55,488 nucleotides of DNA from a virus: positions 1 to 55,488 of IMG/VR virus record IMGVR_UViG_3300037586_002804. One strand, written 5' to 3'. A program made the position numbers and the translations under genes. The notes below the pieces were generated by a model, which did no database searches, was not told the origin of the DNA, and was given only the letters and a program-made list of their open reading frames with translations. Below are positions 226 through 14,249 of this stretch, in pieces (the stretch's first letter is position 1; every line of letters starts with the position of its first letter).

Positions 226-468
226 CTAAACCCTCTCCGCAACAAGTTTGAGTGATGTCCGAGATACAATAAGCGTGCTGCCATTGCCAACCTTTGAGAA
301 TAGAACGCACCACATTCCTGCCAAACGAGGCAAAATCGCGTCTGAACTCCAGGCATCATAACCCTTCTCACGAATGGTGTAGTCCTGAAAAGACTCAACA
401 ATCACTCCCATACCCCAGTCTTCGCCTTCCAATTCATCATTCAGTTCCACTAAGTCACCGACTTTCAT
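226..468 (-). CDS. MKVGDLV-family SH3-like protein, 80 aa
   Basis: It starts with ATG at 466-468 and reads MKVGDLVELNDELEG. A GMGVIVES strand and the end LKLVAERV follow. The start lies inside the 14-base overlap with the upstream gene, whose ENESR-type end is read from the same bases in another frame. The C-terminus has drifted from the family end LEVISESR, as expected for a gene no longer followed by another family member. A KOW/SH3-like barrel is inferred from the spaced G-x-V/I strands; function is unknown. Confidence 0.75.
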   Translation of the reverse strand: MKVGDLVELNDELEGEDWGMGVIVESFQDYTIREKGYDAWSSDAILPRLAGMWCVLFSKVGNGSTLIVSRTSLKLVAERV

Positions 469-682
469 TGCGAACCTCTAAGGCTCGGGTGACATGTCCT
501 GTCATAACAGGATCGCCAGCCCAGAGGACATCGGCTACACACTGACAAGTCTTTCCAATCCAGTTTCTCTCTTCTGCATCGTGTATGCAATAGAGGGAAA
601 TCACAATTCCTGGAGTGTAATTTCCTTCAGGGTTTGAAAAGGGAACGTCACCTTTGTAAATAACTAAATCACCGACTTTCAC
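455..682 (-). CDS. MKVGDLV-family SH3-like protein, 75 aa
   Basis: The chosen start is the GTG at 680-682, giving VKVGDLVIYKGDV. A longer open frame to 781 would run back through the upstream family gene. The protein contains PGIVISLY and VADVLWAGDP strands and ends LEVRNESR. Its stop lies 14 bases inside the next gene, so the last residues and the next gene's MKVGD share DNA. The family function is unknown. Confidence 0.75.
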   Translation of the reverse strand: MKVGDLVIYKGDVPFSNPEGNYTPGIVISLYCIHDAEERNWIGKTCQCVADVLWAGDPVMTGHVTRALEVRNESR

Positions 683-842
683 TAACCACCTTCCAGTCAA
701 TCTGAGAGAAATATCTATTGCTGCCGCCAACGTATTTTCCATTGTTGGCGATAATCTTAATCCATTGGATTTCATTGGCAATCATGACTTCCGTAATCAG
801 TCCGACAACATCTCCTCTTTGAACCAAATCACCGACTTTCAC
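669..842 (-). CDS. MKVGDLV-family SH3-like protein, 57 aa (short)
   Basis: I found this by translating between neighbouring family genes; it is one of the shortest members. It starts with GTG at 840-842 (VKVGDLVQRGDVVGLI) and ends WKVVSESR. Both ends lie in 14-base overlaps with flanking family genes. The strand pattern GLITEV then IKIIANNGKY matches the family, although the usual W-x-D-G is replaced by N-N-G-K. Function is unknown. The fixed overlaps and family ends make a real gene likely despite its size. Confidence 0.7.
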   Translation of the reverse strand: MKVGDLVQRGDVVGLITEVMIANEIQWIKIIANNGKYVGGSNRYFSQIDWKVVSESR

Positions 843-999
843 TAATCACCTCCACACGATGCGCGATGATCCAACTTGTGCGCCCGTCATTCCAGTGTAT
901 AAGAGGGAAGCGCCCATGGGTGGAGACATGCCAGCCCACAATAACTCCCAGCAGTCCACACTCCGAGTTAAGGTTGTTTACTAAATCACCGACTTTCAC
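829..999 (-). CDS. MKVGDLV-family SH3-like protein, 56 aa (short)
   Basis: The start is GTG at 997-999 and the protein reads VKVGDLVNNLNSECG. GLLGVIVGW and PLIHWNDGRTSW strands follow, then the canonical end VEVISESR. It is close to the minimal family member: one barrel with no insertions. The bases encoding EVIS contain GGAGGTGAT, a full match to the anti-Shine-Dalgarno, placed to drive the next gene's GTG at 842. Function is unknown. Confidence 0.75.
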   Translation of the reverse strand: MKVGDLVNNLNSECGLLGVIVGWHVSTHGRFPLIHWNDGRTSWIIAHRVEVISESR

Positions 1000-1183
1000 T
1001 AATCACCTCCAGTTTGGCTGCGTGCCAGTGAGTCACCTTGCCCTTCGTCCAAATCTCTGCCACAGGGACGCACCCGCTGTGTTCTTGGCGGATATTCAGG
1101 ATGATTCCAAGATATTCTTTGCGTTTCCCATAATATTCAGGACTTGTCTTGCTTGTCCATTTTACCAAATCACCGACTTTCAC
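986..1183 (-). CDS. MKVGDLV-family SH3-like protein, 65 aa
   Basis: The chosen start is the GTG at 1181-1183; the open frame continues to 1240 but that extension overlaps the upstream gene. The protein reads VKVGDLVKWTSKTSPEYYG. It has a LGIILNIRQ strand and ends LEVISESR over GGAGGTGAT. The start overlaps the upstream stop by four bases (GTGA). It is a clean member of the first array. Function is unknown. Confidence 0.75.
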   Translation of the reverse strand: MKVGDLVKWTSKTSPEYYGKRKEYLGIILNIRQEHSGCVPVAEIWTKGKVTHWHAAKLEVISESR

Positions 1184-1419
1184 TCTACCACCTCGAAGTT
1201 TCGAGAAGCACAGTTCTCGTTCAGTTTTCCGTCTGCCCAAAGAATGTCAATGCCGGGACCAACAAGAGCGATGAAACGCTCAGGGTAGTCAGGGTTGCGC
1301 TCCCTAACTTTAACGATGAGTCCAATCCTGCTGCTCTTCTTTCTCTGCACTTCGTTGCCAAAGTCGTCATAGAATTTGAGCATCCTGTTTGACTGCCTTA
1401 CTAAATCACCAACTTTCAC
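1180..1419 (-). CDS. MKVGDLV-family SH3-like protein, 79 aa, first of array
   Basis: GTG start at 1417-1419, reading (M)KVGDLVRQSNRML. It contains RIGLIVKVRERNPDYPE and IDILWADGKLN, and ends RNFEVVE. This is the promoter-proximal gene of the first array: a sigma70-type promoter lies at 1450-1478. Its end lacks SESR because the next start overlaps by only four bases, which shows that the SESR end depends on the 14-base junction. Function is unknown. Confidence 0.8.
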   Translation of the reverse strand: MKVGDLVRQSNRMLKFYDDFGNEVQRKKSSRIGLIVKVRERNPDYPERFIALVGPGIDILWADGKLNENCASRNFEVVE

Positions 1420-1449
1420 AAATTGCCTCTTCGCTCTTTCATTGTATAT

Positions 1450-1478
1450 AATATAACACAGTTGTCAGAGGAAGTCAA
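1450..1478 (-). promoter_or_regulatory. sigma70-type promoter for array 1
   Basis: -35 TTGACT at 1473-1478, spacer of 17, and -10 TATATT at 1450-1455 preceded by TGT. It points at the gene starting at 1419. Confidence 0.8.
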
Positions 1479-1481
1479 GAA

Positions 1482-1844
1482 TTATTTCTCCATTATCTCC
1501 AAACAATTCTGACTTGTACTTGTGGTGTCCCCATCATTCCAATACAAGACACATTCAGGAACATAGTAAGGGCTCACCGGATTATCTCCATCTTCCCATC
1601 TCGTCTCATGATCGCAGAGTGTCCACCTCACCTTTCGAACGAGTGCTGCTTTCTTTCTACGCATCCAAGGACTTGGGCGTCTCCCAGTCAATATGTCTCG
1701 CTGGATAGAGCGCTTGAACTGAACGAGATCTCCAACCTTGAAGGTAGGCTCTCCTTGTGTCTCATAGGGTAGTTCTTCCGCAGGGAGAGTGATCGGCATG
1801 TGCCTATAGTGAGAATAATGCTTTTCCGAATTCCTCAATCCCAT
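1482..1844 (-). CDS. SH3-like protein with N-terminal extension, 120 aa
   Basis: ATG at 1842-1844 overlaps the upstream TAA region (TAAATG) and has a GGGAG ribosome site. About 34 residues precede the family motif FKVGDLVQFKRS, so this member carries an N-terminal extension. A basic patch (RRKKAALVRKVRW) and VLYWNDGDTT follow, and the protein ends LEIMEK. A start at Met16 is also possible. It belongs to the family by the KVGDLV and W-N-D-G motifs; function is unknown. Confidence 0.7.
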   Translation of the reverse strand: MGLRNSEKHYSHYRHMPITLPAEELPYETQGEPTFKVGDLVQFKRSIQRDILTGRRPSPWMRRKKAALVRKVRWTLCDHETRWEDGDNPVSPYYVPECVLYWNDGDTTSTSQNCLEIMEK

Positions 1845-2123
1845 TTAGTTCTCCCAGCCTTCATCATCACCCGGAACTGTCTCCGCATATTGTCGCGCCG
1901 TTTGTTGTGCCGTAGCATACTCAGAAGGAGTTAGCACTTTGACTGCGAACGTTCCTTCCTTTTCCGGAACATGAAATAGTCCGAGAAGATCAGATTGATC
2001 AACTTTCAACAAATCTTCCTCCGTGAACTCAATCGATCCGCCGTTCTTTTTGGCAAGTGTAGCGAGGAGCACCATCAAGAAACTTGGATCTTTCAGGAAC
2101 TCATTGGGGTTGTTGCTATTCAT
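1845..2123 (-). CDS. Hypothetical acidic protein, 92 aa
   Basis: The start is ATG at 2121-2123 (MNSNNPNEFLKDPSF); it overlaps the upstream stop by eight bases. The protein has a hydrophobic segment SFLMVLLATLA followed by an acidic tail ending DDEGWEN. The ATAQQTARQYAE stretch is predicted helical. I do not recognise a family. A longer open frame to 2249 lies inside the upstream gene and is not used. Confidence 0.6.
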   Translation of the reverse strand: MNSNNPNEFLKDPSFLMVLLATLAKKNGGSIEFTEEDLLKVDQSDLLGLFHVPEKEGTFAVKVLTPSEYATAQQTARQYAETVPGDDEGWEN

Positions 2124-2331
2124 CTTCTTTTCCTTTCTTTCGAGATTTGGTAGCTTCAAGAATTTCATCAGTTGTGAGATCATGTGCCTGTTGCAACTGA
2201 AATAGAGATAACTCAATCTCTTCCGTGATATTGTCGCAGTCCTCGACATGAATGGTTTCTGAACTCTCCGGCTTCTTTGGATAGTTCAAGTCAAAGACAT
2301 CAACTTTCTGCTGTTTTGTTCGATTGCTCAT
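2116..2331 (-). CDS. Hypothetical protein, 71 aa
   Basis: Starts MSNRTKQQKVDVFDLNYPKK and ends with a lysine-rich tail (KSRKKGKEDE). The LSLFQLQQAHDLTTDEILEATKS stretch is probably helical, and together with the following acidic gene it reads like a small phage structural or assembly pair, but that is inference only. The ATG overlaps the upstream stop by four bases. Confidence 0.6.
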   Translation of the reverse strand: MSNRTKQQKVDVFDLNYPKKPESSETIHVEDCDNITEEIELSLFQLQQAHDLTTDEILEATKSRKKGKEDE

Positions 2332-3131
2332 TTTCCCTCCAGTGATGGAATAATGTTATCTTCAATGATACGAATTGTCTCTTCTGGGCTCTCCGTCTTA
2401 AATCGTCGGCAAGTTGGGAGGGCGTTGTAAAGAGCATAATCATTTCCTCCGGGATCGCACCTGTCTCCAACGAAATAGGTGTTGACAGATGTGTCAACAT
2501 GTCGGAGAGCGAATGTCTTGTCCCACCCAGTGGGGTAGATATCGATGCTCGTATTCCCTCCGAGAGCATGAGTGATTCCTGAAACCGATAGATCGCCAAG
2601 AGCGTCCGAGAGTTCCTTTGACAGAGTTTCTCGAATGCCCTGCGCCTTGTCCGCCTTCACAAACTCTGCTCGCTCTTCCGTTGAGGCGTCTCTACCAATC
2701 ATGCACCAGTTGAGCATGCTTCCTCGATATGAGATGAAATTTCCCGTTAGTGGAATGTCGTAGTGCTCTGCAGCTTGAGCTTGAAGTTTGAGGAGAGTCC
2801 AAACTGTCTTCCAGTAATCTCGCCCCTTTAGTTCATTCTTCATGTCAACGGCGCTCACAAGCTCGTAGTCCTTCCGTGAGCGCTTCCAGGTAAATAATTG
2901 AGTTCCGTTACAGGGCATTAACGAGACGCCAGCAGACGCCAAACAGGGACGCCAGAGAGGCATTGCCTGCTCCCTGACATACTCCATTGGACTTCCGGTG
3001 ACGATGCCGATGTCGGCGAGGTGAGATAGCTTCCGAAGACACTTTCCCACCTCTTCCGACATTTGCTCTCGGGCAGGAGTCAAAGTCCCGTCCAAGTCAA
3101 ACAGAACGATGCTGTCTGATTTTGACTTCAT
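2328..3131 (-). CDS. HAD-superfamily phosphomannomutase-like enzyme, 267 aa
   Basis: This resembles eukaryote-type phosphomannomutase, a HAD-IIB enzyme that interconverts mannose-6-phosphate and mannose-1-phosphate. Motif I is FDLDGTLTPAR near residue 11. The cap has an SYRGSMLNWCMIGR segment similar to the substrate-binding cap of that family. Later come SIDIYPTGWDKTFALR and the acidic motif YFVGDRCDPGGNDYAL. Length matches the family (about 250). With the cupin at 21814 and nucleotidyltransferases at 45820 and 47668 it suggests sugar-nucleotide synthesis. Phosphatase activity cannot be excluded. Confidence 0.85.
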   Translation of the reverse strand: MKSKSDSIVLFDLDGTLTPAREQMSEEVGKCLRKLSHLADIGIVTGSPMEYVREQAMPLWRPCLASAGVSLMPCNGTQLFTWKRSRKDYELVSAVDMKNELKGRDYWKTVWTLLKLQAQAAEHYDIPLTGNFISYRGSMLNWCMIGRDASTEERAEFVKADKAQGIRETLSKELSDALGDLSVSGITHALGGNTSIDIYPTGWDKTFALRHVDTSVNTYFVGDRCDPGGNDYALYNALPTCRRFKTESPEETIRIIEDNIIPSLEGK

Positions 3132-3328
3132 TAGAATACCAGCTTAATAGTAGCTGTCGTGAGCGCATAGACGAGAATTAGAATTGCTGTGTTGCGATTG
3201 ACGATTTGATCCACTTGCCTATAGGACTCTTCCCGAAGCGTTGAATTCTCCTCACTTACTTTCTCATATAGTCCGCGATAATATTCATGCAATGCAGCAT
3301 CGATTTTGGGTTGGGATTGTTTACTCAT
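3131..3328 (-). CDS. Small membrane-anchored coiled-coil protein, 65 aa
   Basis: The start is ATG at 3326-3328 (MSKQSQPKIDAALHEYY), overlapping the upstream stop by four bases (ATGA). A heptad-like region (YEKVSEENSTLREESYRQVD) leads into one C-terminal membrane segment, AILILVYALTTATIKLVF. Its stop abuts the next gene's start. A spanin, holin accessory or tail-anchored membrane protein are all possible; I cannot choose between them. Confidence 0.65.
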   Translation of the reverse strand: MSKQSQPKIDAALHEYYRGLYEKVSEENSTLREESYRQVDQIVNRNTAILILVYALTTATIKLVF

Positions 3329-3624
3329 TTCTTCTCTTCCTTCTCTTGTTGTTCCAGCCATCGCTGTTTTTTGCACGCAGGATCGGTGCAAATTCGGTTC
3401 TTGTCCTTTTTCGTTCCGCTCAACCACCAGTTCCAATGTCCACATTCAAGTCGGTGAGGATGGGTTCTGGTCTTGGGCTCTCTAAATTTAGCATTATCGG
3501 GCGGTAGCTTCTTCGGAGGAGATGTTATGACAGCCTCTTCTGGTTCTGCATTCAAGTTCTGAAGCAACTCTTCGAGCTTTGCCATTTTCTCGCTCAGTTC
3601 TACCTTTGGCTTCTTCTTTGTCAT
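3325..3624 (-). CDS. Putative zinc-binding protein, 99 aa
   Basis: A lysine-rich N-terminus (MTKKKPKVELSEK) is followed by a C/H cluster between about residues 58 and 82: LECGHWNWW then ICTDPACKKQRW. The C-G-H and C-x4-C spacing suggests a small zinc site. The C-terminus is charged (EQQEKEEKK). Function is unknown; a nucleic-acid-binding role would be typical. One-base overlap with the upstream stop region. Confidence 0.6.
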   Translation of the reverse strand: MTKKKPKVELSEKMAKLEELLQNLNAEPEEAVITSPPKKLPPDNAKFREPKTRTHPHRLECGHWNWWLSGTKKDKNRICTDPACKKQRWLEQQEKEEKK

Positions 3625-4618: not shown

Positions 4619-5683
4619 TTAAGCCTCCTCTCCGGTAAGCAACTCCACGATGAAGGAGCACACTGCTTGTCCGTTGGTGCCGATTGATTGATGGAGGATG
4701 ACGGTATTATCAACGCTCCCTTGTCCGAGGACAGTCCAAAGTTTCATTGCCACTTCGGAAGGCAGAGTCAGGAAGTAATCAGCGAGATTCTGAGCCTGTG
4801 CCTCCGTGAGTTGCTCGGTGAACGCCTTGGTTGCTTCCATCTTTTCGACGAGAGCAGAGTGATTGTTAATTCCAAAGTCCTTGGTTTTGGAGATCAATCC
4901 CTTGTCAAGGATGTCTTCGACGGTGACTTGACGCTCATACTCTTCAATGAAGTCTCGCAAAGCAACGGCAGCCTCGAAGCCAACGAAAGAGTTCGTCAGA
5001 TTATAGACGACGCCCAAATCGGAGCCCTCGCTCAACAAATCGCCTTTAGTGAGGCATTCGCTAAGACGATGCCAGGAGCGACGAGAAGGGTAAACCTTGT
5101 TTGGCTCATAATCGTCGGTGTGCTCCAAATGCATGTGGTTCTGGTTAATGAAGTCCCAGATAACCTCATGAACATTGTCTTGCGCCCAGTTGAGCCAATC
5201 TTCAGTGGTAGGCTCGACATCGAAGACAGTCCAACGATCCAATTCAGCAGGGTCCATTTCGCCAACCTGATATTGGTCGCCGTGTTCGCCGCCGTTGACA
5301 GCGGCAAAGATGAGAGTGTCAGGATGGAGAGAGTATCCCGCGAGTTTGCGAGAGTCAGTCAACTCGAAGATCCCCTGGCGGACTTCAGGAGTCGCACGAT
5401 CAACCTCGTCGAGGAAAAGAGCAACAGGGTGCGTACAAGCAGTCTTGTACCACTCAGGCGGGTTCCAAGAGGTAACCTCACCGTCAGTGGAAGGTAGTCC
5501 CAATAAGTCTCCCTCAGTCATTTGTGAGGCACGACGCTCAACTACCGGCAAGCCGATTTCTTTCGCAAGCTGATAAACGACTTCGGACTTGCCAACGCCA
5601 TGGCGTCCGCGAACAAGCACAGGCTTTTTAACTGCAGTAACGTGAGGAACAACTTGGATGAAGGTTGAAAAGTCAATAGCCAT
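4619..5683 (-). CDS. MoxR-family AAA+ ATPase, 354 aa
   Basis: The P-loop RGRHGVGKSEVVYQLA is near residue 26, Walker B ALFLDEVDRA near residue 89, and sensor-1-like FAAVNGGEHGDQYQVGEMDP follows. The substitution of P-E-V-R-Q-G-I-F-E after Walker B is typical of MoxR ATPases, which act as chaperones or remodelling factors with a VWA-domain partner. Such a partner is encoded at 6620-7834 under its own promoter. Length fits the family (about 300-370). The substrate in this phage is unknown. Confidence 0.9.
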   Translation of the reverse strand: MAIDFSTFIQVVPHVTAVKKPVLVRGRHGVGKSEVVYQLAKEIGLPVVERRASQMTEGDLLGLPSTDGEVTSWNPPEWYKTACTHPVALFLDEVDRATPEVRQGIFELTDSRKLAGYSLHPDTLIFAAVNGGEHGDQYQVGEMDPAELDRWTVFDVEPTTEDWLNWAQDNVHEVIWDFINQNHMHLEHTDDYEPNKVYPSRRSWHRLSECLTKGDLLSEGSDLGVVYNLTNSFVGFEAAVALRDFIEEYERQVTVEDILDKGLISKTKDFGINNHSALVEKMEATKAFTEQLTEAQAQNLADYFLTLPSEVAMKLWTVLGQGSVDNTVILHQSIGTNGQAVCSFIVELLTGEEA

Positions 5684-6541: not shown

Positions 6542-6569
6542 TTCGTACCCCTTTCGTTATTACCTATGT

Positions 6570-6623
6570 AATGTAACCCGTGTGCGCTTCCTGTCCAGCG
6601 AAACATTGTCAAGAGAATGTCAA
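6570..6623 (-). promoter_or_regulatory. Double-TTGACA-box promoter (zinc-knuckle gene)
   Basis: Core promoter: TGGACA at 6592-6597, spacer of 16, TACATT at 6570-6575. Two extra TTGACA boxes lie upstream at 6607-6612 and 6618-6623, 11 bases apart, nine bases above the -35. The distal box contains the TGA stop of the gene ending at 6620. Confidence 0.75.
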
Positions 6624-7834
6624 TCAACCACCAGGACGATTTCTGAAGTAGTAAAATAAGGACGATCAGCATATTCTTTAGTAGTCAGCCAGATGCGGCG
6701 GACTTTACAAGGACCGGGTTTCGGCGCTTCCATGTCTGTGGCAATCACAAGTCCATCAAAATTATGCTTGTTAACATAATCGGTGGGAGCTTGAAAGTCA
6801 GTGCCACCGCAGGAAACTCTCTCCGCTTTAAAGCGTTGCCCCTTCTTCCACACCTTGACGTGATCCAAGGCAACTTCAGTATCAAATGGCACAATCGTAA
6901 AGGTGGCAATCTTGGACAACTTATCCATCGCGGCAAAGATCTTGACGAGCATTGCATCGGAGACAGAGCCAGACTGATCAACAGCGATTGCGATGTTAGC
7001 AGTCCGGGTAATCTTCTTTCCAGCATGGATATATGGGAATCGAGAATTGATTCGACGGACGGTAGATTTCTTATTTGCCCGCTGAGATGTCTTCACAAAA
7101 TAGCGAAGAGCTTTTTCCCAGTTGACTCTCACCTTCATTCGTTCCATGATATCTTTTCGAGTAGAAGAGGAGACGGAACCCCAAGAGCCTGCCTGTGCTG
7201 CCTCCTCGGCTGCTTTCTTAAGAGCTTCCTTCAGTCGCTCCTTTGCAATCTCATTAACAGTGTTATCTCCATCGGCACCATCTGCCCACTGAGAGTGATC
7301 ATCAAAGGAATCAGAAGGCGAGCCTTCTCCAGATTCTCCTTCGCCCTCTTCCTCTTCAGGATCTTGCCAGTTGGCGAGATACCATTCGTAAGTCTTGCCA
7401 TGCTCAGCCCATTCGAAGTTCTTGCCTCCGGGCATGCAGCAGAAGTCAGGAAGCTCTCCAATAAGATGGGAATTGATCGCGAGATCCATACAGATGTTGT
7501 CTTTCTTCGTCATCTTGCCGGAAGGGCGTCGTCCAGTAACATGCTCGAAGATAATGTGGTAGAACTCATGCTTGAGAACGCCAAGCTTCTCTCTCTCAGG
7601 AAGACTATTCATGAAATCTGGATTGTAATAGAGCTTGAACTGTGCCGTCTTCTTGTCGATGGTGACACCAGCAGTTGGGATAGATCTGGTTGACACCTTG
7701 TCAATGCGTCGAGAGAGAGCAGCGAAAAATGGCTCGTTCATCAAGAGGCGAGCGGTGTGCATGTTCAAGTCAAACTTTTCAGCGCTCTTCACGGCGTTCG
7801 TTTCGGACTTTTCGGCTTCATTTTCTTCAGACAT
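6620..7834 (-). CDS. VWA/metallopeptidase-like partner of MoxR, 404 aa
   Basis: The start at 7832-7834 (MSEENEAEKSETN) is chosen because the promoter at 7860-7887 lies just upstream; a longer frame to 7900 would cross it. The N-terminal half has KHEFYHIIFEHV, a zincin-type HExxH. A low-complexity acidic linker (near residues 180-205) follows. The C-terminal half has IAIAVDQSGSVSDAM, the D-x-S-x-S metal site of a VWA domain. This arrangement fits the predicted metallopeptidase plus VWA-like family often linked to MoxR ATPases. Whether the peptidase site is active is unknown. Confidence 0.88.
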   Translation of the reverse strand: MSEENEAEKSETNAVKSAEKFDLNMHTARLLMNEPFFAALSRRIDKVSTRSIPTAGVTIDKKTAQFKLYYNPDFMNSLPEREKLGVLKHEFYHIIFEHVTGRRPSGKMTKKDNICMDLAINSHLIGELPDFCCMPGGKNFEWAEHGKTYEWYLANWQDPEEEEGEGESGEGSPSDSFDDHSQWADGADGDNTVNEIAKERLKEALKKAAEEAAQAGSWGSVSSSTRKDIMERMKVRVNWEKALRYFVKTSQRANKKSTVRRINSRFPYIHAGKKITRTANIAIAVDQSGSVSDAMLVKIFAAMDKLSKIATFTIVPFDTEVALDHVKVWKKGQRFKAERVSCGGTDFQAPTDYVNKHNFDGLVIATDMEAPKPGPCKVRRIWLTTKEYADRPYFTTSEIVLVVD

Positions 7835-7859
7835 TTCAACTCTCCCTTCTTGTATATGT

Positions 7860-7887
7860 AATGTATCACGCTGCGGCGCTTTGTCAA
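7860..7887 (-). promoter_or_regulatory. sigma70-type promoter for the VWA gene
   Basis: -35 TTGACA at 7882-7887, spacer of 16, and -10 TACATT at 7860-7865. It is very similar to the promoter of the MoxR gene, so the two partners are probably co-regulated. Confidence 0.8.
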
Positions 7888-7910
7888 GCAGATTTCTCAA
7901 TTATTTCAAT

Positions 7911-8159
7911 CTACCATTCGATTGGATCATTTGCGAGATCGCTCTTCGAATCTTCTCTCGCATCGATTCCGGCTTGGACAAAATCTCCCTCTGCATCATT
8001 CCAATCGCTAAAGTGCCCGGCGTTTTCCGCACGGAGCCAATCGGACAAATTGGTGGCAGCCTCGCGGACAGATGAATTCGTCCCTGGGCTTGTCATCAGG
8101 GAGAATAACCCCTTTTGAATCGTTTCCACTTCCTCGTCCGTCAAAATAGCTTTTACCAT
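7911..8159 (-). CDS. Hypothetical acidic protein, 82 aa
   Basis: MVKAILTDEEVETIQKGLFSLM opens an all-helical acidic protein with a WLRAENAGHFSDWNDAEGDF segment. It is monocistronic or leads the operon into the VWA gene, with its own double-box promoter upstream. No family is recognised. Confidence 0.7.
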   Translation of the reverse strand: MVKAILTDEEVETIQKGLFSLMTSPGTNSSVREAATNLSDWLRAENAGHFSDWNDAEGDFVQAGIDAREDSKSDLANDPIEW

Positions 8160-8190
8160 CTCAGTGCTCCCTCTTTGTTATTACCCCTAT

Positions 8191-8245
8191 AATTTAGCAC
8201 AGAAATGGATAGATGTAAAGAAGTAAGTTGTCAAGAGAGTGTCAA
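8191..8245 (-). promoter_or_regulatory. Double-TTGACA-box promoter (82-aa gene)
   Basis: Core: TTTACA at 8214-8219, spacer of 17, TAAATT at 8191-8196. Extra TTGACA boxes at 8229-8234 and 8240-8245, with the same 11-base period and nine-base gap as the promoter at 6570. The distal box again contains the upstream stop codon (8242-8244). Confidence 0.75.
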
Positions 8246-8448
8246 GAGTCTTCCTTAGTGAGTACGGGCTTGCACCACTCTTTCTTATAGTATACGACTC
8301 TGCCGGTTTTCTGGACGAGGACATCAAATCCCGGAGCGATATATCCAGTCTTAATCTCGTGTATGATAATTCCCAGTCCCTCTTCCATGTCAAAAGATGG
8401 ATATTCCCTGTTCCAGATCCTAACCCTTACCAAATCTCCGACGTTCAT
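8242..8448 (-). CDS. MNVGDLV SH3-like family protein, 68 aa
   Basis: ATG start; MNVGDLVRVRIWNREYPSF, then EGLGIIIHEIKTG and FDVLVQKTGRVVYY strands. It ends VLTKEDS, not SESR, and is not followed by another family member. It is a solitary member between a membrane protein and a promoter. Function is unknown. Confidence 0.75.
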   Translation of the reverse strand: MNVGDLVRVRIWNREYPSFDMEEGLGIIIHEIKTGYIAPGFDVLVQKTGRVVYYKKEWCKPVLTKEDS

Positions 8449-8485
8449 TCACTGCTCAATAGCGCCGGGTGAGCATGATTGATAT

Positions 8486-8719
8486 TCATTCATATCGGAT
8501 GCCGGTGTCTGGAAGCACCTCTGTATTTAAGTCACAAGCCATCATTATTTTGTCACCTCTGACGATTAGCGCTCCCTTTGGTACAAGACGGTAAGCAAAG
8601 ATGCCACTGTCCCAGCGGAGAATTTGCCAATCTCGATTATCAAACATGGTTCCCTTCCACCATGCTCCGAAAGCAAAGCCAATGTTTAGAGATATGAATC
8701 CAACAAGAAATACGAACAT
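8486..8719 (-). CDS. Small membrane protein, 77 aa
   Basis: ATG at 8717-8719 (TAATG overlap with the upstream stop) gives MFVFLVGFISLNIGFAFGAWW, a membrane segment at the very N-terminus. This is followed by a soluble part with NRDWQILRWDSGIFAYRLVP. It may be a signal-anchored protein. No family is recognised. A longer frame to 8821 overlaps the upstream SH3-like gene and is not used. Confidence 0.65.
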   Translation of the reverse strand: MFVFLVGFISLNIGFAFGAWWKGTMFDNRDWQILRWDSGIFAYRLVPKGALIVRGDKIMMACDLNTEVLPDTGIRYE

Positions 8720-9000
8720 TAGACGCTCCTTCGCTTTGAAACAAACTTTAAATCTTTCCGGAGGAATCCTATTTCGCTGGATAGGGCTCCATGGCGAGAC
8801 GCCGGTCCTTGCCCTATCCAATGCACTTTGTAAGAATCACAAACGGTTTTATATCTACGACATTCCTGAATCGCCGTCACCATTCCGACGAGTGTCTTGG
8901 CTTCGCCCGTTACTGCCTTGATGTAGCGAGGCGAATAGCGGCGGAGAGCGTGCGTGCTTATAGCATATTCTGATAACGTCACCAAATCACCGACTTTCAT
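8719..9000 (-). CDS. MKVGDLV-family SH3-like protein, 93 aa
   Basis: The chosen ATG is at 8998-9000, inside the 14-base junction with the upstream family gene (ATGAAAGTCGGTGA). A frame four codons longer exists. The protein reads MKVGDLVTLSEYAISTHALRR, with a long insertion before the TLVGMVTAIQE strand, and ends FVSKRRSV. It is the distal member of its two-gene array. Function is unknown. Confidence 0.75.
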   Translation of the reverse strand: MKVGDLVTLSEYAISTHALRRYSPRYIKAVTGEAKTLVGMVTAIQECRRYKTVCDSYKVHWIGQGPASRHGALSSEIGFLRKDLKFVSKRRSV

Positions 9001-9202
9001 TGAGTGCCTCACTGATCAGGATGAGATTATCTATTCTCGCATAGCCGTCGTCGATTCTGCCTGGGGTGGTGGCATCCACGCCGGGGGACATATACTTGAT
9101 CCAGACACCACCGGGATCCCATGTCTCGGTGCGAACCACGATAGCCATGCGATGTTTGTTCGTACACCACTTCTGAATCTTTACTAAATCGCCGACTTTC
9201 AT
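8987..9202 (-). CDS. MKVGDLV-family SH3-like protein, 71 aa
   Basis: ATG start; MKVGDLVKIQKWCTNKHRM, then AIVVRTETWDPGGVW and ends ISEALNESR. The NESR end is read from the next gene's start region. It is promoter-proximal: a consensus promoter lies at 9220-9248. Function is unknown. Confidence 0.8.
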   Translation of the reverse strand: MKVGDLVKIQKWCTNKHRMAIVVRTETWDPGGVWIKYMSPGVDATTPGRIDDGYARIDNLILISEALNESR

Positions 9203-9219
9203 TTCTTACTCCAGTACAT

Positions 9220-9248
9220 AAGATACCACATTGTAGAGACATTGTCAA
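9220..9248 (-). promoter_or_regulatory. sigma70-type promoter for array 2
   Basis: -35 TTGACA at 9243-9248, spacer of 17, and -10 TATCTT at 9220-9225. The -35 contains the TGA stop of the upstream gene. Confidence 0.78.
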
Positions 9249-9613
9249 GCATTATCTCCTCTTTCTTCAATAATTTCATTAAGCATCTCTTGTGCTGCTT
9301 CTTTTCTTTCGAAAAAGTCGTTCTTATTTATCAAATGTTTGATGAGCCACTTTACTTCAGAAGGGGAAAGCATCGTAAGATCACACGCTGACAGATAATC
9401 AAAGTGCATGTCTTCGAGAAGAGTGTCATCATATTTTCCACTACTCTCATAGGCTTCTCTCCAAACTTCCTCCTCCTCATGGAGATTATGTGGAGGCAGC
9501 ACTTCATCCATCACTTTGCCTATCAGTCTGCTCCAATCGGCATCGTCCCAGGTGCCTTGCTCAATGCGGCGTTGTTGTACTCTGTATTCATCTAAAAAAA
9601 CTAGCTTACCCAT
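9245..9613 (-). CDS. Hypothetical acidic protein, 122 aa
   Basis: MGKLVFLDEYRVQQRRIEQGTW opens a mostly helical acidic protein with EVLPPHNLHEEEEVWREAYES in the middle and a charged end (IIEERGDNA). The MGKLVFLDEYR start resembles a common phage or proteobacterial small-protein N-terminus, but I do not know its role. It follows the SH3-like gene by one base. Confidence 0.65.
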   Translation of the reverse strand: MGKLVFLDEYRVQQRRIEQGTWDDADWSRLIGKVMDEVLPPHNLHEEEEVWREAYESSGKYDDTLLEDMHFDYLSACDLTMLSPSEVKWLIKHLINKNDFFERKEAAQEMLNEIIEERGDNA

Positions 9614-9614
9614 C

Positions 9615-9845
9615 TCATTTTGCCTCTGATACTATTTCTAACTCGTCTTCATAAAACCAGCATGCCCTATTGCCCTCAATTGAACAAACATAATACATTG
9701 TATCTCCCGCGCCGAACCACGGACCCACTTGCGAGATGATGCCGATTGCTCCAATCTTGGTTGTAAACCACTCTTCCGAAGGAAAGTGGAAATAGAGTTG
9801 CTCTCCGCCGGTGAATCTAACCAAATCACCGACTTTCATTTTCAT
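9615..9845 (-). CDS. MKMKVGDLV SH3-like family protein, 76 aa
   Basis: Two in-frame ATGs (9845 and 9839) precede KVGDLVRFTGGEQLYF. The second lies exactly in the 14-base junction. Strands IGAIGIISQVGPW and YYVCSIEGNRACWFYEDE fit the family, and it ends LEIVSEAK. It is the distal member of array 3a. Function is unknown. Confidence 0.75.
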   Translation of the reverse strand: MKMKVGDLVRFTGGEQLYFHFPSEEWFTTKIGAIGIISQVGPWFGAGDTMYYVCSIEGNRACWFYEDELEIVSEAK

Positions 9846-10029
9846 TCTTTACCTTACTTTCTCCGATCACTTCTAAAATAATGTTCCTTTCTTCTGTTTC
9901 CTTCTCAAGATCGAGCCAATACACTCTTGATCTCTCAGTTTCTCGAACAGATGCCTTTACTACGATTCCAATAGGATTTGGACTACTGCTTCCGATTGCC
10001 CTCACCAGATCTCCAACTCTTATCTTCAT
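9826..10029 (-). CDS. MKIRVGDLV SH3-like family protein, 67 aa
   Basis: The start MKIRVGDLVRAIGSSSPNP at 10027-10029 is homologous to other family starts; a seven-codon extension to 10050 exists. GIVVKASVRETERSRVYWLD follows and it ends LEVIGESKVKNENESR. The extra KVKNE before NESR shows how the C-terminus absorbs bases of the junction. A consensus promoter overlaps the start (10030-10058), so its own transcript may begin inside the gene. Confidence 0.7.
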   Translation of the reverse strand: MKIRVGDLVRAIGSSSPNPIGIVVKASVRETERSRVYWLDLEKETEERNIILEVIGESKVKNENESR

Positions 10030-10058
10030 AATATAACAAGGAACGCTCATGCTGTCAA
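10030..10058 (-). promoter_or_regulatory. sigma70-type promoter overlapping a start codon
   Basis: -35 TTGACA at 10053-10058, spacer of 17, and -10 TATATT at 10030-10035 with TGT before it. The -10 abuts the ATG at 10027-10029, so the predicted start of transcription falls inside the gene. Confidence 0.75.
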
Positions 10059-10061
10059 CGA

Positions 10062-10340: not shown

Positions 10341-10347
10341 CAATCTC

Positions 10348-10393
10348 TTCTCCTAAAGTATATAGAGAGGAGAAACTCATAGACTACTTTAGG
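10348..10393 (-). promoter_or_regulatory. Hairpin covering a ribosome-binding site, with TATATACTTTAGG element
   Basis: AGGAGAA (10348-10354 on the minus strand) can pair with TTCTCCT at 10368-10374. Alternatively CCTAAAGTA at 10352-10360 can pair with TACTTTAGG at 10385-10393, which spans the upstream stop codon region. The same TATATACTTTAGG sequence precedes the protease gene at 25490. Two exclusive pairings would suit a translational switch; this is inference. Confidence 0.5.
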
Positions 10394-11964
10394 CTGAAAT
10401 ATCTTTTCTCTTCGGCTTCTTCTTCTGGATATCCGCACTCTTCAATGGAGTCATCCTCGCTCTCTTCCAAGTCCATGTCCGCAACTTGATCCGTTCCAAA
10501 TCCGTGAACAATTTCCAATACTTCTTCAATGGAGTATCCCAAGTTCTGAACAAGGGAGTCTACTGCTGCAGTTAAGTTTTCGAGGGCGACGTTTTCTTCC
10601 GGCTGTCCTTGGAACTCCTGTTCCATTCCGAGATTCTCTCCAGATTCGTCCAATCCACGCTTTGGCTTCTTGTCGTTGTGAGGACCGAGCCCGCTTTTAT
10701 GCAAGCGTCTCTCTCCCTCTTCGTGATCAGGAACAGCGGTGACGGCAGCTTGTGGAGAATAACCTTTCTTTCTATTTTTGGTAAGCTCTTTCGCATGAGA
10801 TGACATATCATCGCGCTTGTAGGCTTTGTAGCCTTCTGCTGTTACGGCAGCAAGTTCTTCTTGAACGATTTGTGCAAGCTTGGATTTGGTGATTTTACCT
10901 TCCCAATATAGGCGTCCTTTCCTTTCGGCAGCCGATTTTTTGGCTGCGTGCATTGGCCAATCTAACTCAGTGCCTCCACCATTGATCCACCTATCTTTCT
11001 CGCGACTGTTTATTACACGCTCCCACTTGCCATGTGCGTCCTCTTGAGAACCCAATCCAGCATTTTTATACCACCATTCCTTGGCGAACTTTCTTTTATC
11101 TCTTAGTTGTATTTCCGCTTGTCGCTTGGCAAAATGCGCTCTTTGCTTGGCACCCGCTTTCCAACGCTTGTCAGCCGCTGCTTGTTTTTTCATCTCAGCA
11201 GCCTGCGCCAACTTTCTCGCGTCTTTGGATGCCTGTGCGATTGCTGATCCAACTGCGCGGGTTGATTCCAATGCATCTTCCCACCGTTTCGTTGCCATAG
11301 CTAACTTATCCTTCTTGTGACGATTATGTACGTAGTATTCCATCCTCTTGGTAGCATCTTTTAGGGCGTCGATCTCGCTGTCTGCTTTTGCCTTGACTTT
11401 GCCTGATTGATCGGCTGCCATGAAGAGTGCGGATTTGATTGCTCGTTGAGCCGTCTCTTCCATCCAATCCAATTCTTCTATGGGCATCTTTCCACCAAAG
11501 AATGGAAGGTATATTTCATTTGTCGCTACAGCAGTTGTAGCTTCAAGTTCTTCTTGAACGATTTGTGCAAGCTTGGATTTGGTGATTTTCATTTTGTTTG
11601 TTCCTTCGCTGTATGTAGCTTCAAAGTCAAGTTCTGCTTCGGATGCTTCTATATCTGCATCCGTCTCGGGCTCGGGTGGGCGGTTGAGTTTGCGATCAGC
11701 GACATTCTGCTTTAGCCTATCCATTTCGTTTTGCCAGCCTTTGTTGTATGCGTCCTCTTCTTCTTGGGTTTCCTCGGTTGTGTCAATCTGCAATACTTTG
11801 CCACCCGCTTGTATGCGTGCAAAGTCGTCTTGAGCGGCTGCTATGCCTCTTTCTTTGGCATCTTTCACTGCTGATAGGGCACCTACGAGCCCAAAGCCTT
11901 CCGTCATTGTGTTGCTTAGTTCTTCTTGGACGATTTGAGTTAGTTGTGTTTTAGTGATTTTCAT
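10384..11964 (-). CDS. Multi-tag protein with three MKITK-type repeats, 526 aa
   Basis: The start at 11962-11964 (MKITKTQLTQIVQEEL) is chosen over a longer frame to 12147, whose first 61 residues are antiframe to the upstream gene. The tag recurs in frame at about residue 126 (MKITKSKLAQIVQEEL) and about residue 362 (GKITKSKLAQIVQEEL). Between tags are alanine/lysine-rich helices (ASKDARKLAQAAEMKKQAAA) and acidic segments. The end is acidic (LEESEDDSIEECGYPEEE). It may be a polyprotein of three tagged units, or a structural protein processed at the tags; a run of internal proteins packed in the head is one possibility. Confidence 0.75.
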   Translation of the reverse strand: MKITKTQLTQIVQEELSNTMTEGFGLVGALSAVKDAKERGIAAAQDDFARIQAGGKVLQIDTTEETQEEEDAYNKGWQNEMDRLKQNVADRKLNRPPEPETDADIEASEAELDFEATYSEGTNKMKITKSKLAQIVQEELEATTAVATNEIYLPFFGGKMPIEELDWMEETAQRAIKSALFMAADQSGKVKAKADSEIDALKDATKRMEYYVHNRHKKDKLAMATKRWEDALESTRAVGSAIAQASKDARKLAQAAEMKKQAAADKRWKAGAKQRAHFAKRQAEIQLRDKRKFAKEWWYKNAGLGSQEDAHGKWERVINSREKDRWINGGGTELDWPMHAAKKSAAERKGRLYWEGKITKSKLAQIVQEELAAVTAEGYKAYKRDDMSSHAKELTKNRKKGYSPQAAVTAVPDHEEGERRLHKSGLGPHNDKKPKRGLDESGENLGMEQEFQGQPEENVALENLTAAVDSLVQNLGYSIEEVLEIVHGFGTDQVADMDLEESEDDSIEECGYPEEEAEEKRYFSLK

Positions 11965-11965
11965 T

Positions 11966-12226
11966 TTAGGAATGCCCCATTTCGTAGTCACGTTCGGCAT
12001 CTGCATCGGCGTCATCTCGACCGGCTTGGTAGCCAGCGTCATAATCATCGCCAACATCAGAAGCAGCAGGCTCGCCATACTTGCCATCCTGATAACCGCG
12101 TTGGTATTCCTTCGAAGTAGCTTTTGATCCAAGTCCAACACCGGCATGGCGAGTGCCGTATTCCTTGAGAACGGCTGTGAACTCTTCTTGGACTATTTGA
12201 GCAAGTTTTGATTTGGTGATTTTCAT
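11966..12226 (-). CDS. MKITKSKLAQIVQEE-tagged protein, 86 aa
   Basis: The N-terminal tag MKITKSKLAQIVQEEF is followed by TAVLKEYGTRHAGVGLG and an aspartate/glycine/tyrosine-rich body (YQDGKYG, YDAGYQAGRDDADADAERD). One base separates it from the next tagged gene. The body looks disordered and acidic. Function is unknown; targeting by the tag is inferred. Confidence 0.75.
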   Translation of the reverse strand: MKITKSKLAQIVQEEFTAVLKEYGTRHAGVGLGSKATSKEYQRGYQDGKYGEPAASDVGDDYDAGYQAGRDDADADAERDYEMGHS

Positions 12227-12236
12227 CGGGGTTCTC

Positions 12237-12473
12237 CTATGCCAACTTAGCCATAGATTTTAAGTTTAAGCCTTTTTCAGCAAGTGCTCTAAACAATATT
12301 AGATATGTATCTGTCATATCTGGGTTTGAACGTTCCATCTCGTATACGGCTTCAGTTAATTGGCCACAAAGTTCTGTGACTTTTTGTTGTTCGGGAGTTA
12401 GCTCTGAGCCGCCGAAGAACTGGTTTAATTCTTCTTTGATGAGTTGAGTTAGTTGTGTTTTTGTGATTTTCAT
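12237..12473 (-). CDS. MKITKTQLTQLIKEE-tagged protein, 78 aa
   Basis: Starts MKITKTQLTQLIKEELNQFFGG and continues as a helical protein (QQKVTELCGQLTEAVYEMER). First gene of three consecutive tagged genes. A hairpin terminator and an AACTATTTATA motif lie between it and the upstream gene. Function is unknown. Confidence 0.75.
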   Translation of the reverse strand: MKITKTQLTQLIKEELNQFFGGSELTPEQQKVTELCGQLTEAVYEMERSNPDMTDTYLILFRALAEKGLNLKSMAKLA

Positions 12474-12486
12474 TGTAGTCCCCGAA

Positions 12487-12517
12487 AGAAAAAACAGGCA
12501 ATGAGAATCATCACCTG
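12487..12517 (-). terminator. Probable intrinsic terminator or attenuator
   Basis: Nine-base stem with two G-T pairs (12495-12503 with 12509-12517), five-base loop, then a run of Ts on the minus strand (12494-12487). It lies 14 bases above the first tagged gene. Confidence 0.6.
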
Positions 12518-12519
12518 CT

Positions 12520-12530
12520 TATAAATAGTT
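12520..12530 (-). promoter_or_regulatory. AACTATTTATA motif
   Basis: The minus strand reads AACTATTTATA. The same 11 bases occur at 15952 and 29226, with a near match at 54209, each time in the short gap before a gene. The plus-strand reading TATAAATA is the T4 late -10 sequence, so orientation is uncertain. Confidence 0.35.
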
Positions 12531-12569
12531 GCGAGACAGACTAACTGCCTTGCTTTATTCAACAATATG

Positions 12570-12905
12570 TCATCGAGCGTAAACAACTCCATAGGGAGTT
12601 ACGGAGTTTAATCCATTGCTGGAGTCATTAACATATCCTCGGACTGCAGATGGTCCTTTTGTGAAGGGAGCATCCCAGTTCGACGCCTTCAAAATTGCAC
12701 CGTCAGACTTGCGGACAAATCCGAAGACGGCGCGGCTTCTGTGGCTATATCGGACAACCTTCCAATACTTCCTGCCGGGATTAACTTCTATTTCAACTCT
12801 ATCCAGTGTTGGGAAGTTCTCGCTCTGATATTTATCAACTAACTTCTGAACTCCGGCGACAAATGTTTCGAATGCGAATTCAATTTCTTCTTTTGAGCGC
12901 TCCAC
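12570..12905 (-). CDS. Conserved phage protein of unknown function, 111 aa
   Basis: The start is the GTG at 12903-12905, spaced six bases from a perfect AAGGAG; a longer frame to 12980 lacks such a site. The body has KYWKVVRYSHRSRAVFGFV, then RKSDGAILKASNWDAP. The pattern K-Y-W-K-V-V-R ... S-R-x-V-F-x-F-V ... G-x-I-L-K-A-x-x-W is common to small phage proteins often annotated only as hypothetical. Function is unknown. Confidence 0.75.
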   Translation of the reverse strand: MERSKEEIEFAFETFVAGVQKLVDKYQSENFPTLDRVEIEVNPGRKYWKVVRYSHRSRAVFGFVRKSDGAILKASNWDAPFTKGPSAVRGYVNDSSNGLNSVTPYGVVYAR

Positions 12906-12915
12906 TACATTCTCC

Positions 12916-13128
12916 TTACAGCAGAACTTCTGCTGGTTCATCTTCAGGTGGACTCTTGATGATGAGTTGCCCTTCTTCAATCATCGCAACTGTAGTACGT
13001 CCGAAAAAGCCCTGAAGGTTCCAGCAAAGACCGGTGTCCAGCAAGTACTGCCATGCTTCGATAACCTGTTCTTCGCCGTCTGATTCGATAAAACCTTCTG
13101 CGAGTCCGATTGCTTTCATTGGATCCAT
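12916..13128 (-). CDS. Hypothetical protein, 70 aa
   Basis: ATG at 13126-13128 with AAGGAG seven bases upstream; it overlaps the preceding SH3-like gene by 13 bases. MDPMKAIGLAEGFIESDGEE, then a WQYLLDTGLCWNLQG segment and VAMIEEGQLI. The segment resembles short phage proteins of unknown function. Confidence 0.7.
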   Translation of the reverse strand: MDPMKAIGLAEGFIESDGEEQVIEAWQYLLDTGLCWNLQGFFGRTTVAMIEEGQLIIKSPPEDEPAEVLL

Positions 13129-13334
13129 TGTTTAGCTCCTTTGCTAATAATAATTAAATTGTCTTCCCATTCGCAACACTGTGTGATTCGTCCCCTGTTG
13201 TCAGGGCTTGTCCAAAACCATGTTACAACCCAGGCGTCTGGCGTCGTACTGTAGTTTGGATCCTTGCCAAGAACAATGCCAAAACAGTCATCGTTTTCCC
13301 AATCTGTTCCCCTTACCATATCACCGGCTTTCAC
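13116..13334 (-). CDS. MKAGDMV SH3-like family protein, 72 aa
   Basis: GTG start in the junction AGTGAAAGCCGGTGA; (M)KAGDMVRGTDWENDDCFG, then IVLGKDPNY and WVVTWFWTSPDN strands. It ends IISKGAKQWIQ, so it is the last family gene of this array. Function is unknown. Confidence 0.75.
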   Translation of the reverse strand: MKAGDMVRGTDWENDDCFGIVLGKDPNYSTTPDAWVVTWFWTSPDNRGRITQCCEWEDNLIIISKGAKQWIQ

Positions 13335-13497
13335 TGATCACCTCCAGTCCGTCTTGACCGATGACACGAATCACGCTGCCGAAGAGAACTTCCCAGCACT
13401 TTATCATGCGAGGGTATCGACGAATAATCATGCCAACTTCGCCGACTTCCCCCTTCGGGCCAAAACATGTTGTCTTTACCAAATCACCGACTTTCAC
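13321..13497 (-). CDS. MKVGDLV-family SH3-like protein, 58 aa (short)
   Basis: I found this by translating between neighbours. GTG at 13495-13497 gives VKVGDLVKTTCFGPKG; EVGMIIRRYPRMIKCWEVLFG follows and it ends LEVISESR over GGAGGTGAT. Both ends lie in 14-base overlaps. Function is unknown. Confidence 0.75.
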   Translation of the reverse strand: MKVGDLVKTTCFGPKGEVGEVGMIIRRYPRMIKCWEVLFGSVIRVIGQDGLEVISESR

Positions 13498-13696
13498 TAA
13501 TCACCTCCACCCTGGAAGCCAGAAGCCACTCTGGTGCAGACTCTGTTTTTCCATTAGACCATTTTACTATAAGCCACAGCCTTTTGTAGCCCGGTGTTCC
13601 CATCATCTCAGCACAGGTAACAAGACCATACCCTTTGAACTCGCTCTTGTCTCTCTCACGCGGGTTACACCATGTAATCAAATCACCGACTTTCAC
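13484..13696 (-). CDS. MKVGDLI SH3-like family protein, 70 aa
   Basis: The chosen start is GTG at 13694-13696 (VKVGDLITWCNPRERDK); an open frame extends to 13804 through the upstream gene. It has YGLVTCAEM and LWLIVKWSNGKTE strands and ends VEVISESR over GGAGGTGAT. Function is unknown. Confidence 0.75.
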   Translation of the reverse strand: MKVGDLITWCNPRERDKSEFKGYGLVTCAEMMGTPGYKRLWLIVKWSNGKTESAPEWLLASRVEVISESR

Positions 13697-13883
13697 TGAG
13701 CACCTCGCATGATTGTTCGATTTGCCTTCCAAGCTCAAGATACCTGCCGTCGATAAAAACTCTCCAGTCGTATTCCAGCCTGTCGTTTCTCGGCAACTTC
13801 TCAACTAAGAGGGCAGCGCTTGATTGCAACTTCCAGTGGTTGCGACAACCGCTTCCTATTTCTATCAGATCACCGACTTGCAT
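13683..13883 (-). CDS. MQVGDLI SH3-like family protein, 66 aa
   Basis: ATG at 13881-13883 (MQVGDLIEIGSGCRN) aligns with other family starts; a TTG two codons earlier would overlap the upstream stop by four bases. It has a DWRVFIDGRYLE strand and ends CEVLSESR. Function is unknown. Confidence 0.7.
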   Translation of the reverse strand: MQVGDLIEIGSGCRNHWKLQSSAALLVEKLPRNDRLEYDWRVFIDGRYLELGRQIEQSCEVLSESR

Positions 13884-13885
13884 TT

Positions 13886-14077
13886 TCAACTCAACACCTC
13901 CACAGCGCTCGGGCGCACATCAATATAAGTTTTGCCTGTTGACAAGCACAGCAACTTCAAACGCGGTGCTGGGTTACGATACATTTCAAGAAGATGAAAC
14001 AGCCCACAAAGCGGCGGGTTGGTGCCCGGTGCTGGTTGAACTGTTTGGCGCATATTTACTAAATCACCGACTTTCAT
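13886..14077 (-). CDS. MKVGDLV-family SH3-like protein, 63 aa
   Basis: ATG at 14075-14077 in the junction ATGAAAGTCGGTGA; MKVGDLVNMRQTVQPAPG, then LFHLLEMYRNPAPRL, ending AVEVLS. The end is truncated relative to LEVISESR, matching its non-standard junction with the next gene. Function is unknown. Confidence 0.72.
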   Translation of the reverse strand: MKVGDLVNMRQTVQPAPGTNPPLCGLFHLLEMYRNPAPRLKLLCLSTGKTYIDVRPSAVEVLS

Positions 14078-14249
14078 TGAGCACCTCAATATGCTTATCC
14101 CACATGAGGTGGGTAAAGCCATTGCCCCAAAGCACCCACCAGTGACCCGCTACCGTCTCGGATGCCCGGAGAATCACGCCGGGGGTGCCGCCGTAAAGAA
14201 TCCAATCGGGATCTTTTTCCACTTCTCTTACCAAATTGCCGGGTTTCAT
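14064..14249 (-). CDS. MKPGNLV SH3-like family protein, 61 aa, first of array
   Basis: ATG start; MKPGNLVREVEKDPDW, then TPGVILRASETVAG and WWVLWGNGFTH strands, ending IEVLNESR. It is promoter-proximal to the third array and has diverged at the start (P-G-N for V-G-D). Function is unknown. Confidence 0.78.
   Translation of the reverse strand: MKPGNLVREVEKDPDWILYGGTPGVILRASETVAGHWWVLWGNGFTHLMWDKHIEVLNESR

Follow-up and report, generated by a model that had tools for sequence, protein, structure and literature searches.

The arrays analysed here consist of short genes for SH3-like proteins that follow each other closely on one strand of a 55,488-base virus record (IMGVR_UViG_3300037586_002804), which was examined over its whole length and is called the window. 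The genes, here called units, start with codons for MKVGDLV and form three groups on the minus strand, at about 226-1419, 8242-10029 and 13116-14553. The original prediction named twelve junctions where the stop of one gene and the start of the next share exactly 14 bases, and all twelve, every one on the minus strand, do prove exact: an upstream TGA stop and a downstream ATG or GTG start have 14 bases in common. The exact word GTG/ATGAAAGTCGGTGA stands at nine of these sites and variant words at the other three (GTGAAAGCCGGTGA at 13321, ATGAACGTCGGTGA at 14540 and ATGAAGAAGGGTGA at 30482). When up to three mismatches are allowed, the word occurs 26 times in the window against an expected 9.65, and 26 was reached in none of 100 shuffles. 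The joined genes, all taken to be SH3-like in the prediction, are so at most sites, but the upstream gene is of another kind at 14540 (an AbrB-like open reading frame (ORF) of 71 amino acids) and at 30482 (an ORF of 111 amino acids). Nor is the boundary always 14: the unit pair 1419->1183 is joined by a 4-base GTGA overlap (1180-1183), and the pair 14077->13883 lacks the 14-base overlap.

To see where the number 14 comes from, consider the start word ATGAAAGTCGGTGAT, in which the peptide MKVGD is spelled ATG AAA GTC GGT GAT. In both other frames this word contains a TGA: the one at positions 2-4 closes the +1 frame, and the one at positions 12-14 closes the +2 frame. From this it follows that overlaps of 4 and 14 are the only ones possible, and that an upstream gene which enters the word in either frame must end 4 or 14 nucleotides (nt) past the next start. 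A third class, with overlap 10, is read from units that have ATGC.. for ATGA.. together with an ATA codon, so that the next stop in the same frame is a TAG at positions 8-10. As the word is written, the exact length thus follows from it and is tied to the N-terminal coding sequence. The junction word reads (S/N)-E-S-R-stop in the upstream frame and M-K-V-G-D in the downstream frame, and since the last units of arrays end without ESR (in LVAERV, KQWIQ, VSEAK, SKRRSV or TKEDS), ESR arises as a side effect of the junction and can be ruled out as a conserved protein tail. What remains in need of explanation is the choice of the GGT codon, the homologous C-terminal stretch that encodes LEVISESR and holds a Shine-Dalgarno sequence, and the repeated use of the word.

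Related arrays were collected from IMG/VR by pattern scans and one homology scan, which together gave at least 195 sequences, at least 169 contigs and at least 1,359 distinct units; all survey-wide counts of junctions, blocks and codons below refer to the matches listed in these scans. A single hidden Markov model family takes in 1,290 of 1,322 units, and there are contigs with at least up to 33 units and at least up to about 30 repeats of the word. Among 759 close unit-to-unit junctions the overlap is 14 in 598, 4 in 109, 10 in 16 and 1 in 8, so that free variation in junction length, which would have spoken against cassettes, is not seen: lengths of 14, 4 or 10 account for 95% of cases. Among 347 non-unit neighbour pairs on the same contigs, overlaps of 4 (67), 1 (25) and 8 (12) prevail, and only 5 are of length 14. 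Since these neighbours have the usual spacings, and since a review of translational coupling likewise finds gene spacings of -4, -1 and -8 enriched (PMC12548453), the -14 overlap is peculiar to the SH3-like unit family. The phages that carry the arrays are large, uncultured and mainly marine, the last as judged from a few record titles and the sequences rather than from sample metadata. Neither the unit proteins nor the junction DNA had a convincing match in 50,697 phage records, where the weak hits listed fall in structural or unrelated genes.

The word is kept beyond what the peptide demands. Among units for which it goes unused, 76% and 74% still have the +2 stop at positions 12-14, while recoding of the same peptides by the internal synonymous codon usage of the units leads one to expect only 29%. 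In the same way, the Gly codon of the word is GGT in 74-78% of units even where the stop is unused, against 30% inside units. An enrichment of GGT created by the search patterns could be ruled out, since the unused stop persists at 71-74% after removal of every pattern-matched unit; in two contigs found by way of an unrelated gene it is present in 79-91%.

The consensus at the junction is GGAGGT(g)AT(c)A + RTGAAAGTcGGTGAT. Its first part belongs to the gene before, whose final strand codons, as a rule LEVI, are spelled GGAGGTGAT and thereby place a Shine-Dalgarno sequence just upstream of the next start. The C-terminal Glu-Val is encoded by GAGGTN in 97% of cases before a 14-nt junction, and the particular spelling GAGGTG makes up 43% of these C-terminal pairs but only 9% of internal ones. 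A Shine-Dalgarno match of at least 5 nt precedes 76% of the starts in the 14 class, compared with 18% in shuffles. A stop and a start only a few nt apart, with a Shine-Dalgarno sequence inside the upstream gene, is the arrangement of a coupled gene pair, and this position suggests translational coupling by termination-reinitiation at the junctions.

How single units are distributed among phages is illustrated by a comparison of the window with contig G002 (IMGVR 3300025082_000009). Most stretches shared by the two are 63-75% identical; single units of the window are 92, 95 and 97% identical to units of G002 and one further unit is 88% identical, and all ends of the unit alignments but one fall at the junctions or no more than a few bases from them. 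At four-fold degenerate sites, 22 of 22 and 18 of 21 are identical in two such units, and in six backbone genes (MoxR, VWA, DnaE, DnaB-like, dUTPase and GroEL) the identity at these sites is 26-46%, which is near saturation. In the survey as a whole, blocks of at least 85% identity mostly start and stop close to a unit boundary: the distance is at most 25 nt for 94% of their 5' ends (20% at random) and for 75% of their 3' ends (21% at random), where the random values come from shifted positions. There are 58 islands of 85-99% identity, in 44 contig pairs, that comprise a single unit with both ends at boundaries, and in 38 of 47 sequence pairs with islands the non-unit DNA is less than 80% identical or not alignable. 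Inside the islands, codon positions 1 and 2 are 94.7% identical and four-fold sites 86.1%, from which it follows that the unit proteins are under purifying selection. At the breakpoints the shared sequence is 14-51 nt long. At the level of sequence comparison, these data demonstrate that phages trade units one at a time or a few in a row, and that the breakpoints fall at the word.

Gain or loss of whole units between relatives, which the original prediction had proposed as support for a cassette organisation, is also seen. Contigs L043 (102.5 kb) and L039 (73.6 kb) are 99.5% identical over 8,386 bp and 100% identical over 2,609 bp, and their difference there is 176 bp, corresponding to one whole unit between two copies of the 20-bp direct repeat ATGAAAGTCGGTGATTTGGT. 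A second pair, L220 and L216, differs by one unit of 175 bp. Each of the two additional units terminates in the other frame, and one 14-nt junction has become one 14-nt and one 4-nt junction. This switch of frame is what a word with a stop in both other frames should produce, and it means that a working overlap is recovered, as had been proposed, though not always one of 14. The order of units is likewise not conserved: with letters for groups of units, G001 and G003 have D=E=F, G002 has D=E=E=O=N=F, and the window has D=F, with O in a different array. Adjacent units share a median of 20.5% of their body residues, exactly as random units from other contigs do (0.205 against 0.205), and only four unit pairs on the same contig reach 80% nucleotide identity. 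Tandem duplication is therefore rejected, and arrays seem to grow by import of foreign units.

Taken together, we assign a probability of about 0.78 to the arrays being rows of one-gene cassettes exchanged at a shared start word. Each of the genes begins with a shared word of about 20 bp, (A/G)TGAAAGTCGGTGATTTGGT, normally preceded by the Shine-Dalgarno sequence in the LEVI codons of the previous gene. Such a word would be a frame-independent acceptor, so that insertion, deletion or swap of a cassette would leave every gene with stop, Shine-Dalgarno sequence and start, and termination-reinitiation would keep the operon translated after a swap. The exchange itself would occur during co-infection, with the 20-40 nt of the word serving for homologous recombination or for annealing. 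Homologous exchange over such lengths is the simplest reading, and it would probably make use of a RecA-family recombinase, for which most of the longer contigs have a gene: a UvsX-like gene scores above the profile cut-off in 13 of 21 contigs. Integrase (PF00589) and resolvase were found in none of 21 contigs and RecT in none of 20, negatives that are limited by the contigs being fragments, although some are 185-204 kb long.

Several points weigh against cassettes exchanged at the word. Both the recombination and the coupled translation are read from sequence. Genes of the RecA family occur in many large phages and are no particular mark of the arrays. A few breakpoints lie inside unit ends, as when the similarity of window unit 669-842 to G002 halts about 19 nt before the stop. 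The codon pair GAGGTN also occurs in 83% of the C-terminal Glu-Val pairs of units without a downstream motif unit, and part of this bias may reflect ancestry or missed neighbours. Every contig is metagenomic, no isolate having been found, and repeats of 20-40 nt could in principle cause misjoins. Finally, coupling in reporter experiments falls as the overlap grows beyond -4 (PMC12548453), and an overlap of 14 is therefore no obvious optimum.

Of the other ways to account for the arrays, ordinary mosaicism comes closest, and we regard it as rather unlikely. It assumes that illegitimate recombination breaks genomes anywhere, that only the joints at gene boundaries survive selection, and that the word is kept only as a good translation signal and as the first strand of the SH3 fold. 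Phage genomes are well known for mosaic joints at gene boundaries, MKVGDLV is a natural first strand, KOW proteins weakly match the profile, and the proteins are under purifying selection, as seen inside the islands. It is harder for mosaicism to explain why 14-51 nt of sequence are shared at the breakpoints, why a 20-bp direct repeat stands on either side of a clean indel, and why silent positions of the word, including those of a stop that is not used, are conserved. That the overlap is merely a passive result of the MKVGD peptide, in arrays made by tandem duplication and divergence, is very improbable. The two stops in the word do account for the exactness, but the preference for GGT where nothing is terminated does not follow from the peptide, the duplication part is already contradicted by the dissimilarity of neighbours, and units move between phages.

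A site-specific recombinase with the word as its target, comparable to IntI and attC in integrons, has an equally small chance. It would explain how a single unit could be inserted at one short site between near-identical phages; yet no tyrosine or serine recombinase was found in the 21 contigs, which are fragments but in several cases 185-204 kb long, no inverted repeat is obvious in the word, and the length of the exchanged flank varies between 14 and 51 nt. A recombinase of unrecognised type might still be at work. Slightly less credible still is the suggestion that the shuffling is an artefact of metagenome assembly, for which the purely metagenomic origin of the contigs and a word in up to about 30 copies per contig provide the means. 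The identical order of 11 units in G001 and G003, which are separate IMG/VR records, argues against assembly error, as does the agreement of L043 and L039 at every junction but one, and misassembly would not yield single units of 85-95% identity or signals at the codon level.

That no system with this layout had been described was part of the original prediction, and no account of coding, frame-independent junction arrays of this kind was found in the open-licence literature; the statement has to be tempered, however, by a close analogy. Promoter-early stem-loop (PeSL) elements are mobile regulatory cassettes of T4-like phages which, as far as they are outlined in the citing work (Arbiol 2010 and Comeau 2014, as cited in PMC4503421), are short repeats beside small non-core genes of large phages that provide homology for gene shuffling. 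In the arrays, too, the repeated element sits at the breakpoints, as seen from the 5' block ends at unit starts and the repeat-flanked indel. PeSL elements are outlined there as a promoter and a stem-loop beside varied gene families, whereas the element here is a translation signal in overlapping coding sequence of one family, with Shine-Dalgarno sequence, start and stops and no intergenic room for a promoter and stem-loop. With integrons the arrays share rows of single-gene cassettes of diverse content that come, go and change order at one kind of site. They differ by the IntI tyrosine recombinase, found in none of the 21 fragmentary contigs, by having no attI, by cassettes that overlap in coding sequence, encode one fold and would be co-translated, and by overlaps of 14 or 4 nt that leave no room for attC between genes, although no attC search was made. 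Since there is no promoter or stem-loop between the genes and integrase was not found in the 21 contigs, the arrays work like PeSL shuffling and, in outline, like integron arrays, but belong to neither.

The start-associated sequences (SAS) of Cluster K mycobacteriophages resemble the word in being conserved, short, built on a Shine-Dalgarno core and reused at the starts of many genes, there of different families. The 13-bp SAS, GGGATAGGAGCCC, which differs from the consensus in the arrays, lies 3-7 bp upstream of starts, outside genes and mostly after gaps of more than 50 bp; the genes are not paralogous, and no cassette exchange is described (PMC3203893). Ordinary NTGA (-4) coupling also has a stop/start overlap with an internal Shine-Dalgarno sequence, and the second state of the arrays is exactly -4; their main state is -14, however, and their start word closes both frames (PMC12548453).

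The units encode SH3/Tudor/KOW-like proteins of 50-90 amino acids. For the unit at 832-999, AlphaFold2 predicts a small barrel of five strands (residues 6-9, 17-26, 29-36, 41-43 and 49-53) with a predicted local distance difference test (pLDDT) score of 94.7, and the model thus conforms to an SH3-like small barrel. The best solved structures found by Foldseek are Tudor, chromo, KOW and related barrels, among them the C-terminal Tudor domain of UvrD, PetP, the PHF19 Tudor domain and the KOW domains of Spt5/NusG, with template-modelling (TM) scores of about 0.7-0.8 but E-values above 0.01. The C-terminal domain of UvrD binds RNA polymerase, and RNA polymerase and ribosomes are frequent partners of Tudor/KOW small barrels. 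In a library of viral structures the matches were uncharacterised phage proteins. Although the predicted fold is that of known small barrels, no Pfam family scores above its gathering cut-off, only weak and scattered matches, some to KOW, being found; the best PHROG matches are families of unknown function, and the Pfam and PHROGs searches therefore yield no function. Fast turnover is expected of small phage genes for host interaction or takeover, and from the turnover and small size of the units one might guess at a role in host takeover or counter-defence; the pool could conceivably supply variable proteins of this type.

It is an even bet whether the arrays amount to gene capture at a coding sequence common to two frames, where homology, stops, start and Shine-Dalgarno sequence are supplied together and a gene of any kind could be attached to any unit, whatever the frame, and still be expressed. 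In that case a community of phages would share a pool of interchangeable one-domain proteins, into which unrelated genes, such as the AbrB-like gene of the window and a gene for a single-stranded DNA-binding (SSB)-like protein in contig L009, would be drawn by the same word. Cassettes exchanged at the word would form a system that has no integrase, and they offer a concrete, testable account of the way in which large phages acquire and shed the many small uncharacterised genes of their variable regions. The word would be a natural frame-independent element for joining genes, of use in synthetic biology, and a handle by which thousands of candidate phage-host interaction proteins could be collected from metagenomes.

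Table. Units, junctions and associated genes of the window
Feature	Coordinates	Strand	Remark
Unit A6, SH3-like, last of array A, ends LVAERV, no ESR	226..468	-	
Junction A6/A5, 14 nt	455..468	-	exact overlap
Unit A5; 88% nt identity to a single G002 unit	455..682	-	
Junction A5/A4, 14 nt	669..682	-	exact overlap
Unit A4, group F; 92% identity to G002 unit up to final ~19 nt	669..842	-	
Junction A4/A3, 14 nt	829..842	-	exact overlap
Unit A3, group D; 95% identity to G002 unit, block ends at junctions; structure predicted	829..999	-	
Junction A3/A2, 14 nt	986..999	-	exact overlap
Unit A2	986..1183	-	
Unit A1, first of array A; 4-nt GTGA overlap with A2	1180..1419	-	
Solitary SH3-like unit	8242..8448	-	
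Unit B4	8719..9000	-	
Junction B4/B3, 14 nt	8987..9000	-	exact overlap
Unit B3, ends EALNESR	8987..9202	-	
Unit B2, ends VSEAK, last before non-unit gene	9615..9839	-	
Junction B2/B1, 14 nt	9826..9839	-	exact overlap
Unit B1, MKIRVGDLV..KNENESR	9826..10029	-	
Unit C7, last of array C	13116..13334	-	
Junction C7/C6, 14 nt, GTGAAAGCCGGTGA	13321..13334	-	exact overlap
Unit C6, group O; 97% identity to a single G002 unit in other array context	13321..13497	-	
Junction C6/C5, 14 nt	13484..13497	-	exact overlap
Unit C5; 81% identity to G003/G001 unit	13484..13696	-	
Junction C5/C4, 14 nt	13683..13696	-	exact overlap
Unit C4	13683..13883	-	
Unit C3; no 14-nt overlap with C4	13886..14077	-	
Junction C3/C2, 14 nt	14064..14077	-	exact overlap
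Unit C2, MKPGNLV start	14064..14249	-	
Unit C1, MNVGDLV	14329..14553	-	
Junction of unit C1 with unrelated upstream gene, 14 nt	14540..14553	-	exact overlap
Short AbrB/MazE-like gene, stop inside start word of unit C1	14540..14755	-	weak Pfam match, below cut-off
Distant MKKGDL gene; 14-nt junction (30482-30495) with unrelated upstream ORF	30232..30495	-	exact overlap

The AbrB/MazE-like protein, directly upstream of an array, is possibly a regulator or one half of a toxin-antitoxin pair. In L009, at about 8073-9089, a gene like that of the T4 gp32-type SSB starts exactly at the junction word (VKVGEYDANGNGN...), and its relative in G003 has a different N-terminus; the word may here have been joined onto an unrelated gene. 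Two further solitary SH3-like genes without junction lie at 17485-17892 (IGVGDLVEV...) and 18214-18576 (MTIKQGDLVNW...), both on the minus strand.

Junction hits in five bacterial records of metagenome-assembled genomes (MAGs) were rejected as evidence of prophages, the arrays being of the same form as those in phage contigs. One of them, in a WOR-3 MAG chromosome (L160; CP070664.1, 2136001-2144000), is a phage-like array stretch that looks mis-scaffolded, and since in the scaffold it lies past a run of N, it is not taken as a prophage.

Between arrays A and B the minus strand encodes a MoxR-type AAA ATPase and a VWA/metallopeptidase-like protein (4619-5683 and 6620-7900), a pair that also accompanies the arrays in G001, G002, G003 and G008. 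What appears to be a second multi-copy family is found at 10384-12473 on the minus strand, where neighbouring ORFs, as well as points within an ORF of 587 amino acids, start with MKITK(S/T)(K/Q)LxQIVQEEL, perhaps a targeting or capsid-packaging signal. Three larger proteins, encoded on the minus strand at 15327-15947, 25745-26818 and 26815-29193, have a common N-terminal motif, (L)LxxWRKFVNE / DGWQQFVGG.

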